Shown piece by piece: positions 31,472 through 48,785 of a DNA stretch of 64,000 bases. The notes below the pieces were generated by a model. That model had not been told where the DNA came from. It worked only from the letters and a program-made list of their open reading frames with translations, and made no database searches. Position 1 is the stretch's first letter; every line of letters begins with the position of its first letter. The stretch is from the NCBI GenBank assembly GCA_902547215.1, contig CACCNI010000001.1, forward strand, positions 1-64,000. The letters run 5' to 3'. Both the position numbers and the translations under genes were made by a program. This DNA is from an uncultured Pelagibacteraceae bacterium. Lineage in GTDB: Bacteria; Pseudomonadota; Alphaproteobacteria; Pelagibacterales; Pelagibacteraceae.

Positions 31472-32392
31472 TTAAGCGATAGATTTTAGAATATTCTTGT
31501 TCAAAAAGGAATGCGGAATATTTTTCTCTTTTAGCTCAATTATAGAGAAATTTTCATTTTTACTTAGTAATTTTCTTAAGCCTTGATTAGTGATGTGGTG
31601 ACCACCTTGACACGAAGTAATTTTACCAACCATTTTGAAACCCGACAAATATAGATCCCCGAGACAATCTAAAATCTTGTGATTTACGAATTCTTTTTCG
31701 TTTCTAAGTTTTTCTTTATTTAAAATTTTGTTTTGCTTAACAACAATCGCATTATCTAAAGAACCACCTTTTGCTAAATTTAAATTTTTGAGTTTTTCTA
31801 TATCCTCATATAAACAAAACGTTCTTGAATTATACATTTCAGATAAATCATCCATGTAAATGTTTATCTTATTTTTTTGAGTGTTGATTAGTTCATTTTT
31901 AAAATTTATCTCAAAATCAATTTCTAAACTTATTTTACTTGGCTTAAAAGAAATAGATTTTTCACCCTCTTTAAAAACTATTTCTTTATTTATAGTAATA
32001 ATTTTAATTGGTTGGTCGCTAATTTCAAAATCAGCTGAGTCAATTGCTTCTATAAAATTTTTAGAAGATCCATCTAATATTGGTACTTCTTCAGCATCTA
32101 TTTCTACTAATAAATTATCTACACCTTTTCCGTATAACGCAGCCATTAAATGCTCAATAGTTGAAACTGATACCCCATACTCATTTGAAATCTTTGTGCA
32201 ATATGAAGCATTTGAAACATTAAAAACACTTGGGTAAATTATATTATTTGAAGTTAAATCAGTTCTTTTAAAATATATTCCAACATTTGGTTTCTGGGGA
32301 ACTAACTTTATATTAACACTTTTCCCAGAGTGAAGACCAACACCAGACAAATTAATTTCTTTTTTTAGTGTCTTTTGTTTTAAAATTGACAT
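31472..32392 (-). CDS. lpxC: UDP-3-O-acyl-N-acetylglucosamine deacetylase
   Basis: LSGVGLHSGKSVNIKL, STIEHLMAAL, HKILDCLGDLYL. Confidence 0.95.
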   Translation of the reverse strand: MSILKQKTLKKEINLSGVGLHSGKSVNIKLVPQKPNVGIYFKRTDLTSNNIIYPSVFNVSNASYCTKISNEYGVSVSTIEHLMAALYGKGVDNLLVEIDAEEVPILDGSSKNFIEAIDSADFEISDQPIKIITINKEIVFKEGEKSISFKPSKISLEIDFEINFKNELINTQKNKINIYMDDLSEMYNSRTFCLYEDIEKLKNLNLAKGGSLDNAIVVKQNKILNKEKLRNEKEFVNHKILDCLGDLYLSGFKMVGKITSCQGGHHITNQGLRKLLSKNENFSIIELKEKNIPHSFLNKNILKSIA

Positions 32393-32459: not shown

Positions 32460-33164
32460 TTAACTGAAGAAATTGAACATTTTTTCAAAGAAACCCTGCT
32501 TTTTAGAATAAAGATTATGCATTATTACCTCTGAAGGGTTAATGCCATCAACCACCTTTTTTCCAGCAATACAAGGACTTGTATCGGTTTTTTCTGCAAA
32601 TCTACTTGAATATTGATGGCTGATAATTTTTTTTACCTCAATATTACAATCTTTAAAGATTTTATTTAGTGTTTTTACAATTGTGTTTTGAATTGTGATA
32701 AAACTAACTTCAACAACAAATTCCTTATAACTTACGTTCTCAGGAAATTCTAAATATTCTTTGCCATCAACTATGTATTTATCAACTATCAAATGTAAAA
32801 TAGCTGAATCTTTATTGTTTCTTATAATTTGTTGCTTTGCATCACTAATTAGTCTAACAACATCGGTCTCTTTAATTTTATCAGTATCAAATTTATTTTT
32901 TAAACTAAATGAGTATTGATCTGACCTGGCATCAGTAATTATATTAATTTTTTCAATAAAACTTCCAACATTTTTTTCAAAATCTCTAATTTTTTCTGAA
33001 ATAAATTTCTTTACTATTATCAAATTTAAATTATTGCCTAAAGTATCAGGCATTAAGTATTTTTTTTGATAACTGGAATTATAATCTTTAGAGCTAAAAT
33101 AATTAATGTGAAGGTTTTGACCCACTATTGCAAAATAAAAGTTTTGGACATCTTTATTAATCAT
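32460..33164 (-). CDS. ftsA: Truncated FtsA-like protein (1A/1C region plus C-terminal amphipathic tail)
   Basis: ILHLIVDKYIVDGKEYLEFPENVSYKEFVVEVSFITIQNTIVKTLNKIFKDCNIEVKKIISHQYSS resembles the FtsA 1C segment; ends KKQGFFEKMFNFFS; lies between ftsQ and lpxC. Confidence 0.75.
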   Translation of the reverse strand: MINKDVQNFYFAIVGQNLHINYFSSKDYNSSYQKKYLMPDTLGNNLNLIIVKKFISEKIRDFEKNVGSFIEKINIITDARSDQYSFSLKNKFDTDKIKETDVVRLISDAKQQIIRNNKDSAILHLIVDKYIVDGKEYLEFPENVSYKEFVVEVSFITIQNTIVKTLNKIFKDCNIEVKKIISHQYSSRFAEKTDTSPCIAGKKVVDGINPSEVIMHNLYSKKQGFFEKMFNFFS

Positions 33165-33831
33165 AAGTTATAATCTTGCCTGGAATTCTCAAATCTATAA
33201 TTTTTGATTTATTAAATTCTTCCTTTTCAATTAGTCTCTTGCTTAAATTCAAACTTCTAATTGTTAAATCAATTGGAAATTTGATCTTTTTATCATTTTC
33301 TAATTCAATATCTATCCTTTCACTTTGGAAAAAATTAATTTTTTTTATATTTTTAATATTAAAATTAGATTTGTTAAAAATTTTTATAGTTTGAAAAACT
33401 TTTTTTATATCATTGGTTCCAGTAACCTCAGGAACGTTTTTTGGTAAGTTTTTTAAGTAAATTATTTTTCCATTATTTCCTAAAATAACTTTTTCATTAA
33501 AATATTTGACAACACTGATAGCCACAGCTGGCTCAAGATTAACTTTTACCTGATTCGGGTATATTTTTTTTACATCATAACTTTTTATTAAATTTACAGT
33601 GTTTATTAATTTAAAAGACTCTTTATTAAGTGAAAAAATATTCGATCCAATCAAATCTGTCAATTTATTTTCTAAAAGTAAATTATCAGTTTCATTTAAA
33701 CCAACCACCTCAATTTTATTAATAGTAAAAAAATTATAATTTTTAAAGTTAGAATTGTGAATTGAGGATAAAATTATAAAAATTATCAAATAAAAAAAAA
33801 TATATTTTTTATTATCTATTTTTTGAAGCAT
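33157..33831 (-). CDS. ftsQ: Cell division protein FtsQ (POTRA)
   Basis: Single TM then INKIEVVGLNETDNLLLENKL; position after ddl. Confidence 0.82.
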   Translation of the reverse strand: MLQKIDNKKYIFFYLIIFIILSSIHNSNFKNYNFFTINKIEVVGLNETDNLLLENKLTDLIGSNIFSLNKESFKLINTVNLIKSYDVKKIYPNQVKVNLEPAVAISVVKYFNEKVILGNNGKIIYLKNLPKNVPEVTGTNDIKKVFQTIKIFNKSNFNIKNIKKINFFQSERIDIELENDKKIKFPIDLTIRSLNLSKRLIEKEEFNKSKIIDLRIPGKIITYD

Positions 33832-41578: not shown

Positions 41579-44401
41579 TTACAAATTTTTTATTATCTTA
41601 TTTAATCCAGTTGAGTTAGATCCTTTTATCATTAAAAAACTGTTATTAGGTAATTGTTTCCTTATCAAATTCAAAATCTCTAATTTATTGTTTAATATTT
41701 TGCCTCTCATTTGTGGTTTTAGTTTGTTAAATGTATGTTTTGTATAGTTGCCATAAACATGAGCTTTATTTATTTTAGATTTATTAATATATTTCGCAAT
41801 TTTAATATGAAGTTTTTTTGAAAATTTTCCTAATTCAAGCATATTTCCAATCAAAATAAATTTTTTCTTACTATCCTTATAGTTTTTGTCAAATCTATCT
41901 AATGCAAATTTAAATGAAAGAGGATTTGAATTATAACTTTCATCAATAATAGTTATGTTTTTTTTTCCACTTTTATACCTTATTATAGTGCCTCTGCTCT
42001 GGGAAATTTCGAAATTTAAAAATAAATTTGTAGGTAATGCATCAATATTAAAATAATTAACAATAATACTCAGTGTAGATAAAATATTTTCTTTAAAATC
42101 TATTAAATAATCGGGAATTAGAAAAAATTTTATTTTTCCATTTATTAAAAATTTACATAAAAATTTATTTCTATTTTTTCTTTCCCCTAGGTAAACGACA
42201 TCAGCTAATTTATTTTTTTTACTGAAAGTAATAATATTTAAATTTCTCATTTTTGCTTTTGAAATAAAATAGTTACAGTATTTATCGTCCTTATTTACAA
42301 TCATTGCTCCAGAGGGAGAAATATTATTTATTATTTCACCCTTAGCTTTTGCAATCTCATCTAGATTCTTAAAATTCTTAATATGAGCATATGAAATATT
42401 TGTAATTAAACCAAGATTAGGTCTTATTAGTTTTGTTAAAGTGTTTATTTCTCCTTTTTTATCCATTCCAACTTCTAATACTGAGAACTTTGTCGATTGA
42501 GGTGAATTTATAATACTTAAAGGTACACCGTATTTATTATTAAAGGAATTTTTTGAATAATATGTTTTGTCTAATTTATCTAAACAAAATCCAGTTAAGT
42601 CTTTAACTGACGTTTTTCCAGCAGATCCGGTTATTGCAATATAATTACTGTCTAAAGACTTTCTATAAATTGAGCTAAATTTATTTAGTTTCTCGAAAGG
42701 ATTTTTACTAAATATATTTCTGGAATTTTTAGATTTTTTGTTTGTGATTGCTAAAATTGCATTATTTTTTATCGCCTCAACTCCAAATTTATTTCCATCA
42801 AATTTTTGACCCTTCACTCCAAAAAATACTGAATTTTTTTTAACATCTTTAGAGTTTAAAGACACTGAGTTTATTAGAGTTCTTTTATTTAAAATTTTAT
42901 TACTGAAAGTTTCAGTTAAGATATTTGTTTTAAGAGAATTCGATAATAAGTTATTCTTCTTTCTTATAGCTTTAATAATCTCTAATTTATCCGAGAAAAA
43001 AAATCTTTTTTTATATTCTTGATAATTTTCGTGTCCCTTTCCAGCAACAATTAAAATATCACCTGAATTTAATTCACTAACAGCTTTTGAAATAGCGTCA
43101 GACCGTGAGGAAATTTCAATATATTTTTTTTTCTTAATTTTCCTCTTTATCTGGTCTCTTATTACCTTAGGGTTTTCAAACCTTGGATTGTCGTCAGTTA
43201 GATATATTCTATCACAATACTTGTTTGCAATATCTCCCATTAAAGGTCTTTTACTTTTATCCCTATCCCCTCCACATCCAAATACTAATGAGATTTTACT
43301 TAAAGGGTAATCTTCTTTTATATTTGATATTACTGTTTTTAAAGCATCTGGGGTATGTGCATAATCAAGTATTACTCGTGATTTATTTTTTAGTTTACCA
43401 ATTTGCTCTAGTCTTCCATTGACAGGTCTAACCTTACTTATATTACTTAGAATGGTATCAATTTTAATGCCTGATAAATATGCAGCCAAAACTGCAAAAA
43501 GTAAATTTTTTACCTGAATACTACCAATCAGATAAGAATTGAAAGAATAATCTTTTTTTAAAAGACTAAAATGAATTCTCTTTTTATCATTGATTTTTTG
43601 AATTTTTTTTAAATTAATGAAAGAATTTTCGTTACCTATCTTATAAATCTTCAATTTCTTTTTTTTTGAAATTTTATTAAGCTCTTTTTCTTGAGATATT
43701 CCATTTTCAAAAATTATATTTCCTTTATTAAGCAACAATTTATTAAAAAGAATAAGTTTAGAATTCAAATAATCTTTAAATGTTTTATGATAATCTAAAT
43801 GATCCCTCGTCAAGTTTGTAAACAAAGCGGTTTTTAAATTCAATCCATCCAATCTATGTTGTTTTAAACCATGACTTGATGCTTCTATAATTACGTTATC
43901 AATATTTGAATTTTTCAACTTCTGTAAAATTTTATGCATTTTAATAGGATCTATTGTTGTATTATTTGTCTTTAAATTAACTTTTTTTGATAAAACTCCC
44001 AACGTTCCAACAGCAGCAGCTTTTTTTTTGCTCAGGGATAATATTTGATAGAAAAAATTCGCTATTGAAGTTTTGCCATTTGTACCAGTTATAGCAATGA
44101 TATTTTTAGGTTTTTTTTTATAAAAATTGCTTGCAGCGTCTGCTAATGCTTTTCTTGGATTTTTATTTTTAATAAATAAAATTTTTTCTTTATTAAACCC
44201 CTCAAAATTCAGATTTGAAATAATAATTTTTGAGCCGTTTTTTATAGCGTCTTTAATATAATTATTTCCGTTTAATTTATTTCCCTGAATAGAAAAAAAA
44301 ATATCGTTAGTTTTGCAATCTCTGCTGTTAAATCTAATATTATTAAATCTAATGGATTTATAGGCTGGCTTTATATTTTTAATTAATTTACCCAATAACA
44401 T
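41579..44401 (-). CDS. murE-murF: MurE-MurF fusion ligase
   Basis: 940 aa with two Mur-ligase P-loops (ITGTNGKTSIANF and ITGSAGKTSVKDL); MurE-type then MurF-type signatures in one uninterrupted frame. Confidence 0.92.
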   Translation of the reverse strand: MLLGKLIKNIKPAYKSIRFNNIRFNSRDCKTNDIFFSIQGNKLNGNNYIKDAIKNGSKIIISNLNFEGFNKEKILFIKNKNPRKALADAASNFYKKKPKNIIAITGTNGKTSIANFFYQILSLSKKKAAAVGTLGVLSKKVNLKTNNTTIDPIKMHKILQKLKNSNIDNVIIEASSHGLKQHRLDGLNLKTALFTNLTRDHLDYHKTFKDYLNSKLILFNKLLLNKGNIIFENGISQEKELNKISKKKKLKIYKIGNENSFINLKKIQKINDKKRIHFSLLKKDYSFNSYLIGSIQVKNLLFAVLAAYLSGIKIDTILSNISKVRPVNGRLEQIGKLKNKSRVILDYAHTPDALKTVISNIKEDYPLSKISLVFGCGGDRDKSKRPLMGDIANKYCDRIYLTDDNPRFENPKVIRDQIKRKIKKKKYIEISSRSDAISKAVSELNSGDILIVAGKGHENYQEYKKRFFFSDKLEIIKAIRKKNNLLSNSLKTNILTETFSNKILNKRTLINSVSLNSKDVKKNSVFFGVKGQKFDGNKFGVEAIKNNAILAITNKKSKNSRNIFSKNPFEKLNKFSSIYRKSLDSNYIAITGSAGKTSVKDLTGFCLDKLDKTYYSKNSFNNKYGVPLSIINSPQSTKFSVLEVGMDKKGEINTLTKLIRPNLGLITNISYAHIKNFKNLDEIAKAKGEIINNISPSGAMIVNKDDKYCNYFISKAKMRNLNIITFSKKNKLADVVYLGERKNRNKFLCKFLINGKIKFFLIPDYLIDFKENILSTLSIIVNYFNIDALPTNLFLNFEISQSRGTIIRYKSGKKNITIIDESYNSNPLSFKFALDRFDKNYKDSKKKFILIGNMLELGKFSKKLHIKIAKYINKSKINKAHVYGNYTKHTFNKLKPQMRGKILNNKLEILNLIRKQLPNNSFLMIKGSNSTGLNKIIKNL

Positions 44402-47345: not shown

Positions 47346-48785
47346 TTAATTTTTTTGTCTTCTTAAAAATGCTGGTATTTCTAGTTCATCTTCTTCATCT
47401 GTATCACTCTCCTCATTTATATTTGTTTCGTGATCAGGGTTTATATTTTGTCTCTCGTCAAATAATTGAGGATCCTGTGCATCTAAATTAAAGTTTTCAA
47501 GTCCATTAGATTCGTCATCTGTGGTATCTGCAGCATTATCGCTAAGTATCAGTTTTTCCTCAAGAGAACTTTCATCATTATCACCTTCACTTGTTATAGG
47601 ATTTTCAACTGCCATTTTTTCGTCTACCATAGATGAGATCAAATCATTTTCTGAAACTTTGATATCGTTAGTTTCTATTTTTAATGCATTGGCACCGCTT
47701 GTGGATAATCCTTTATTCATTTCATAAGAGTAATTTGGTCTCAAATTTGAAAAATCTGAATAGCCTGGATTACGGTTTTGTATTCTGTGCACCATATTAA
47801 TAACTGATTTTGATTCAGGTTGTTGTCCATCTAACGAAGTTGCAACAATAGATACTCTAAATTTTTCCTCTAATGATGGATCAATTATACAGCCCTTAAT
47901 AAATTCGACTTCTGCATCAACCTCAGAAGTAATTTTTTTAACAACCTCATCAACTTCAAAAAGTGTAGGTTTTTTTGCCGTTATATTGATAAGTAAACCT
48001 TTTGCACTTTTCAAAGAATAGTCATCGATAAGAGGATTGGTCATAGCTTGCTCTGCGGCTTTTAAAGCTCTGCCCTCACCCTCTGCTTCTCCTGTGCCCA
48101 TCATTGCCTTACCCATTGAGCTCATGATAGTTTCAACATCAGCATAATCTAAATTTACTAGACCGGGACGTACCATTAAATCTGTAACACTTTGAACACC
48201 TTGTAAAAGAACATCATTTGAGAGTTCAAATGCTTCTTCAAAACCTGTGTGCTCATTTGCAATTTTAAATAAGTTTTGATTGGGAACTACTATAATAGTA
48301 TCTACATGTTTTCTTAATTCCTCAAGACCTTGTTGAGCTCTTCTCATTTTAGATGACCCCTCATATAAGAAAGGCAAAGTTACAACGCCTACTGTTAGGA
48401 TATTAAGTTCCTTTGCAGCTCGTGCAATTACATGAGCAGAACCAGTTCCTGTTCCACCACCCATTCCTGCAGTTATGAAAACCATGTTTGCTCCTTGCAA
48501 ACAATTTACTATTTCATTTAATGACTCGTCTGCAGCAGCTTGACCAATATCAATTTTTGCCCCAGCTCCAAGACCCTTTGTTAAATTTAAACCAATTTGT
48601 ATTTTTGCTTTTGCTTTACTATGGATTAAATCTTGTGCATCAGTATTTACTGCAACAAATTCAACGCCTTGTAATCCACTTTCGATCATTTTGTTTATCG
48701 CATTTCCTCCAGCGCCACCTACACCTAAAACCAGTATTCTAGGTTTTAGCTCCTTTATCTCTGGTGTTTTAAAATTAATTGTCAT
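47346..48785 (-). CDS. ftsZ: Cell division protein FtsZ
   Basis: GVGGAGGNAINKMI, AGMGGGTGTGSAHVIA, C-terminal DELEIPAFLRRQKN. Confidence 0.96.
   Translation of the reverse strand: MTINFKTPEIKELKPRILVLGVGGAGGNAINKMIESGLQGVEFVAVNTDAQDLIHSKAKAKIQIGLNLTKGLGAGAKIDIGQAAADESLNEIVNCLQGANMVFITAGMGGGTGTGSAHVIARAAKELNILTVGVVTLPFLYEGSSKMRRAQQGLEELRKHVDTIIVVPNQNLFKIANEHTGFEEAFELSNDVLLQGVQSVTDLMVRPGLVNLDYADVETIMSSMGKAMMGTGEAEGEGRALKAAEQAMTNPLIDDYSLKSAKGLLINITAKKPTLFEVDEVVKKITSEVDAEVEFIKGCIIDPSLEEKFRVSIVATSLDGQQPESKSVINMVHRIQNRNPGYSDFSNLRPNYSYEMNKGLSTSGANALKIETNDIKVSENDLISSMVDEKMAVENPITSEGDNDESSLEEKLILSDNAADTTDDESNGLENFNLDAQDPQLFDERQNINPDHETNINEESDTDEEDELEIPAFLRRQKN

Follow-up and report, generated by a model that had tools for sequence, protein, structure and literature searches.

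A half-length FtsA of Pelagibacter lacks actin subdomains 2A and 2B and is probably retained as a membrane-bound adaptor

The ftsQ-lpxC locus and the identity of its short FtsA

The window, a 64,000-nt stretch of a contig from an uncultured Pelagibacteraceae bacterium, carries an intact ORF with an ATG start that encodes 234 residues (positions 32460–33164, minus strand) between ftsQ and lpxC. The ORF list, matches to PF02491 and TIGR01174, and an orthologous position in >100 relatives identify this ORF as a short ftsA, which is referred to as mini-ftsA. The upstream neighbour ftsQ (33157–33831, minus strand; 224 aa) contains the Pfam domains POTRA_1 and FtsQ_DivIB_C, both above cut-off, and overlaps mini-ftsA by 8 bp. 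The downstream neighbour lpxC (31472–32392, minus strand; PF03331, E = 6e-92), which served as the anchor of our census, is separated from mini-ftsA by 67 bp without any FtsA remainder. The gene order murB-ddl-ftsQ-ftsA-lpxC is kept at the lpxC-anchored loci of genomes with the mini form and of those with a full-length ftsA. The only copy of ftsZ found (47346–48785, minus strand; PF00091 and ORF; 479 aa) ends with LEIPAFLRRQKN, an intact C-terminal peptide; it sits between mraZ and rsmH and not after ftsA. A 940-aa ORF (41579–44401, minus strand) carries two complete Mur ligase domain sets and is apparently a MurE-MurF fusion.

Residues 93–157 of mini-FtsA match PF02491 (SHS2_FTSA; E = 3.9e-7, 30.8 bits against a cut-off of 25.4), and residues 47–189 match positions 45–186 of the 371 positions of TIGR01174 (ftsA; E = 3.4e-14). 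The TIGR01174 equivalog score is not reached (52.7 against 175.85 bits); the full-length FtsAs of Pelagibacter likewise remain under this cut-off, and some minis fall short of the Pfam thresholds. A profile built from nine minis matches PDB entries of FtsA (7q6d, E = 3.7e-4). The AlphaFold model of mini-FtsA, computed from a mini-only alignment of nine sequences, has a pLDDT of 80.5 and a pTM of 0.77; one default MAFFT alignment, which set the C-terminal helix of the minis on the DIG strand, was kept out of this run. The 19 best PDB matches of the model are all FtsA, with TMq values up to 0.69 over ~190 columns. The best superposition is on 7q6i_B, from an FtsA:FtsN complex entry, with a TMq of 0.69 and an rmsd of 2.8 Å. 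The original prediction of an FtsA-type protein at this locus is thus confirmed by Pfam, by the PDB profile search and by the model, which matches FtsA first and best. The 234-aa ORF is an FtsA descendant with the 1A-1C fold. It is FtsA by descent and not by the defining functional features, since 2A, 2B and the ATP motifs are absent. We call it the FtsA-derived 1A-1C adaptor (mini-FtsA).

Anatomy, distribution and history of the deletion

Residues 1–92 (32889–33164, minus strand) form the N-terminal part of subdomain 1A, in which the motif columns reveal the loss of the phosphate-1 Asp. The model places strands at residues 8–14, 17–23, 30–37 and 72–77 and a helix at residues 48–66. Residues 93–157 (32694–32888, minus strand) are subdomain 1C, the SHS2 domain, as originally predicted. 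The mini/full alignment puts the deletion junction after residue 190/191 (32594–32595, minus strand). It is followed by a helix at residues 197–205 (32550–32576, minus strand), which aligns with helix 329–342 of the full form and represents the retained C-terminal helix of 1A. Residues 221–234, KKQGFFEKMFNFFS (32463–32504, minus strand), are predicted to be an amphipathic membrane-targeting helix; the model forms a helix at residues 225–232 with low local confidence, and the tail motif GFFEKxFxxF is conserved in both mini and full forms. The proposal that the 1C region and a membrane tail are kept therefore holds, while the last helix of 1A had been overlooked, and only 2A and 2B are missing.

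Subdomains 2A and 2B are absent from both the sequence and the model; what the mini form retains is 1A as far as the strand that precedes DxGGGT, 1C, the last 1A helix and the amphipathic tail. A full-length comparator model also folds as FtsA, and the strands and helices missing from the mini form lie between its helix 177–189 and helix 329–342. The absent part is a single block of ~141 residues, which corresponds to residues 185/186–325 of a 369-aa full form (L078). In L078 numbering the junction runs from 184/185 to 326 and is the same within one residue in all four mini clades. The two conserved residues that flank it, Tyr185 and Glu212, stand 27 or 28 residues apart in each of these clades, with the caveat that alignment programs tend to put such gaps in consistent places. 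A single precise excision has taken just 2A and 2B out of the actin fold of mini-FtsA.

The original prediction allowed for a deletion peculiar to this assembly; the deletion is instead common to 69 of the 106 members of the genus whose locus could be read, at the same place, and the full form occurs in the other 37, which makes the mini form the commoner type in the sampled genus. The length of ftsA is bimodal (nearly always 220–244 aa for the mini form, 368–399 aa for the full form), and the spacing between ftsQ and lpxC is ~750 bp in mini genomes and ~1,200 bp in full genomes. Strain HTCC9565 (L165) has a full-length FtsA. In 15 other family members FtsA is 403–411 aa long, and no complete mini-length frame was found outside the genus in a second search over the order. 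Several loci deviate from the two types. In one complete genome (L082, G078) the reading frame of the mini ftsA changes close to an A8 run, so that an ORF of 174 aa remains, and another locus (L118, G282) has a broken mini copy. Two loci (L140, G156; L160, AG-910-M23) carry a full-type ftsA with an in-frame TAA, inside a long A run, just before 2A; the resulting first ORF of 183 aa may reflect an intermediate or a sequencing error. At L045 (G170), the best ftsQ match is a 79-aa ORF only, upstream of a full-type ftsA.

The flanking genes (LpxC, MurB and Ddl) put the minis in four groups. They reject a single mini clade (delta lnL 61, p_AU 0.0096), and on this evidence a single origin is rejected. 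On the FtsA columns common to both forms, a single clade is not rejected (p 0.364), and FtsA and the flanking genes each reject the other's tree. That the junctions are identical speaks for a small number of deletions combined with recombination, whereas the flanking-gene tree favours several losses; either parallel loss or recombination may explain the pattern. Convergent change in the minis could also create the conflict between the trees.

The ATP site changed beyond the minis. Among 34 other FtsAs from Alphaproteobacteria, every sequence has the phosphate-1 Asp and Gly and the adenosine Gly pair, and nearly all have G(G/A/S)G as the phosphate-2 loop. This loop, GGGT, has given way to bulky and charged residues in 15 family members and 38 full Pelagibacter forms, and the adenosine GG is eroded in the full forms. 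Among the 68 aligned minis, the phosphate-1 Asp is replaced in most, and the phosphate-2 and adenosine motifs are deleted in all 68. Because the full-length FtsAs of the family already lack the GGGT loop, the ATP function seems to have decayed first, after which domain 2 would have been dispensable. ATP binding by these full-length proteins (L015-L031, L045-L154) is itself doubtful on account of the lost GGGT.

Function of mini-FtsA and the anchoring of FtsZ

We consider it probable that mini-FtsA, having lost 2A and 2B, survives as a functional membrane-bound adaptor. In the family ancestor, decay of the phosphate-2 loop would have left ATP-driven polymerisation weak or absent, after which the ATP-binding half may have been dispensable and was excised within Pelagibacter. 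In FtsA, IIA and IIB make the longitudinal filament contacts and IC makes the lateral contacts (PMC7613929). As the ATP site and the IIA/IIB contacts are absent, mini-FtsA is presumably unable to bind ATP or to polymerise longitudinally. It would sit on the membrane through its tail and work through 1A-1C, the part that engages late divisome partners and forms lateral contacts in FtsA of the E. coli type. The link to FtsZ would be either a new contact on mini-FtsA or a different protein that recognises the unchanged C-terminal peptide. The observations are consistent with the initial proposal of partner recruitment through 1C and membrane anchoring without ATP-dependent polymerisation. The whole reading is on balance favoured: in a dominant group of marine bacteria, a half-actin FtsA without nucleotide and without polymerisation still supports division as a 1A-1C membrane adaptor, and the FtsZ peptide is read at a new site on it or by another anchor.

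In support of a role for 1A-1C, the FtsN tail binds the IA-IC cleft of FtsA (PMC7613929), and FtsN binding through 1C has also been described (PMC11323482). Three observations count against the adaptor reading. A SPOR-domain FtsN was not found, which leaves the known ligand of 1C missing; SPOR matches occur in six genomes, and both of those inspected are RlpA-like lipoproteins whose genes lie between an mltB-like and a dacA-like gene. A few genomes carry a mini gene with a frameshift or a further shortening. The unchanged FtsZ peptide indicates that it still has a reader; if this is another anchor, mini-FtsA may be an accessory protein and not the tether.

FtsA is a direct binding partner of the FtsZ peptide (PMC5832921). 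FtsZ ends with an almost invariant (L/F)EIPAFLRRQKN in the mini and full Pelagibacter genomes examined. The known docking site, in the T. maritima complex (4a2a), is at 2B. If 2B were the sole reader, the peptide should be relaxed in mini genomes, which is not seen. The unchanged peptide in the face of the loss of 2B points to a new site on mini-FtsA or to another reader protein. A second, short motif in the FtsZ linker, ~N(G/D)L(E/K)(N/E)F...P(D/E)LF, lies ~25–45 residues before the C-terminal peptide genus-wide (L236-L252, L156-L181) and may be where a further partner docks. Among 15 genomes, of which 14 are near-complete, ZipA has no match and SepF has only sub-threshold matches (13.7–13.9 bits against a cut-off of 27), and both were rejected as the replacement anchor.

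The anchoring of FtsZ may have passed to some other, unrecognised protein, leaving mini-FtsA only to regulate or recruit late divisome proteins through 1C. The loss of the FtsZ-docking half beside an unchanged FtsZ peptide, and an evolution of mini-FtsA that is fast but constrained, like that of ftsQ, speak for this arrangement. However, neither the SepF nor the ZipA family rises above cut-off and no candidate was found, and we regard it as a reasonable possibility of somewhat less than even chance. It is an alternative to direct tethering and fits the adaptor reading. In direct tethering, the FtsZ peptide would have moved to a new 1A-1C site, and mini-FtsA would stay the main membrane anchor of the Z-ring. 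The near-invariance of LEIPAFLRRQKN across the mini and full genomes examined, the lack of an above-threshold ZipA or SepF in the 15 genomes and the retained amphipathic tail all fit this arrangement, whereas the known docking subdomain is missing and other proteins, MinC- or ClpX-like ones among them, could read the peptide. We put direct tethering forward only tentatively.

Mini-ftsA could also be a decaying remnant on its way to loss, as the frameshifted or N-terminally shortened copies in a few genomes (G078, G282, G399) and the poor conservation of 1A might indicate. In 19 close mini pairs, however, dN/dS is 0.12–0.34, a range similar to those of ftsQ and full ftsA and above those of lpxC and murB. 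Mini-FtsA is under purifying selection, which makes a pseudogene unlikely. The length varies by only a few residues in nearly all of the 68 intact copies, the motif spacing is constant within one residue, and the fold is still predicted. We therefore consider a decaying remnant very improbable.

The host assembly comprises 794,920 bases and is 67% complete, and the check for a second FtsA was therefore repeated in near-complete relatives. Searches of the host genome with PF14450 and TIGR01174 found no second FtsA or split domain 2, and no FtsA remainder lies elsewhere in it. The PF14450 and TIGR01174 matches on contig C22 are MreB, and a match in a 646-aa frame on contig C19 was judged to be DnaK. 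The original prediction hinged in part on there being no full-length ftsA elsewhere, and no second FtsA was found in 13 near-complete mini genomes, five of which are single-contig and 99–100% complete; their other matches are one ~350-aa and one ~645-aa frame, which their length and the region matched mark as MreB and DnaK. An assembly or binning deletion, or a full-length ftsA elsewhere, which the incompleteness of the window's own genome would allow, is virtually excluded by the presence of the mini form in single-contig genomes of 99–100% completeness with only MreB- and DnaK-type matches besides.

Comparison with known systems

The core job of FtsA is widely held to be the formation of ATP-dependent polymers together with a grip on FtsZ. 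In mini-FtsA the half that does both is removed, the rest is under selection, and the FtsZ peptide is untouched, so that it becomes testable which activities of FtsA division needs. Cultured mini and full strains probably exist (HTCC9565 for the full-length form), which would provide a natural comparison within one genus. Minis often escape Pfam, and annotation may miss them. No paper on the structure of FtsA in SAR11 was found in the open-access literature searched, a source that can miss prior work.

Compared with canonical FtsA (E. coli, T. maritima and V. maritimus; 7q6d, 1e4f/4a2a and 7q6f/7q6i), which gives the best fold matches, mini-FtsA has the same place in the dcw cluster, after ftsQ, and shares 1A, 1C and the C-terminal amphipathic motif. 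In contrast to the ~400–440 aa of canonical FtsA, it has 234 aa and lacks 2A and 2B, the ATP motifs, the longitudinal filament contacts and the known site for the FtsZ peptide. The full-length FtsA of Pelagibacter (368–399 aa; HTCC9565) is its direct homologue at the same locus, with a shared 1C and GFFEKxF tail, and the mini form differs from it by one internal excision; the full-length protein keeps 2A and 2B with an already degenerate phosphate-2 loop. SepF and ZipA are alternative membrane anchors of FtsZ that could fill the tethering role, with neither above cut-off in the 15 genomes. PilM and the cytoplasmic part of GspL/EpsL, which are actin-like adaptors of pilus and type II secretion machines, are weaker fold matches to the mini-FtsA model; they serve other machines, have not undergone the excision of a whole half, and are related to mini-FtsA through the actin fold only. 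GspL is an actin-like inner-membrane adaptor without ATPase and provides a precedent for such a loss.
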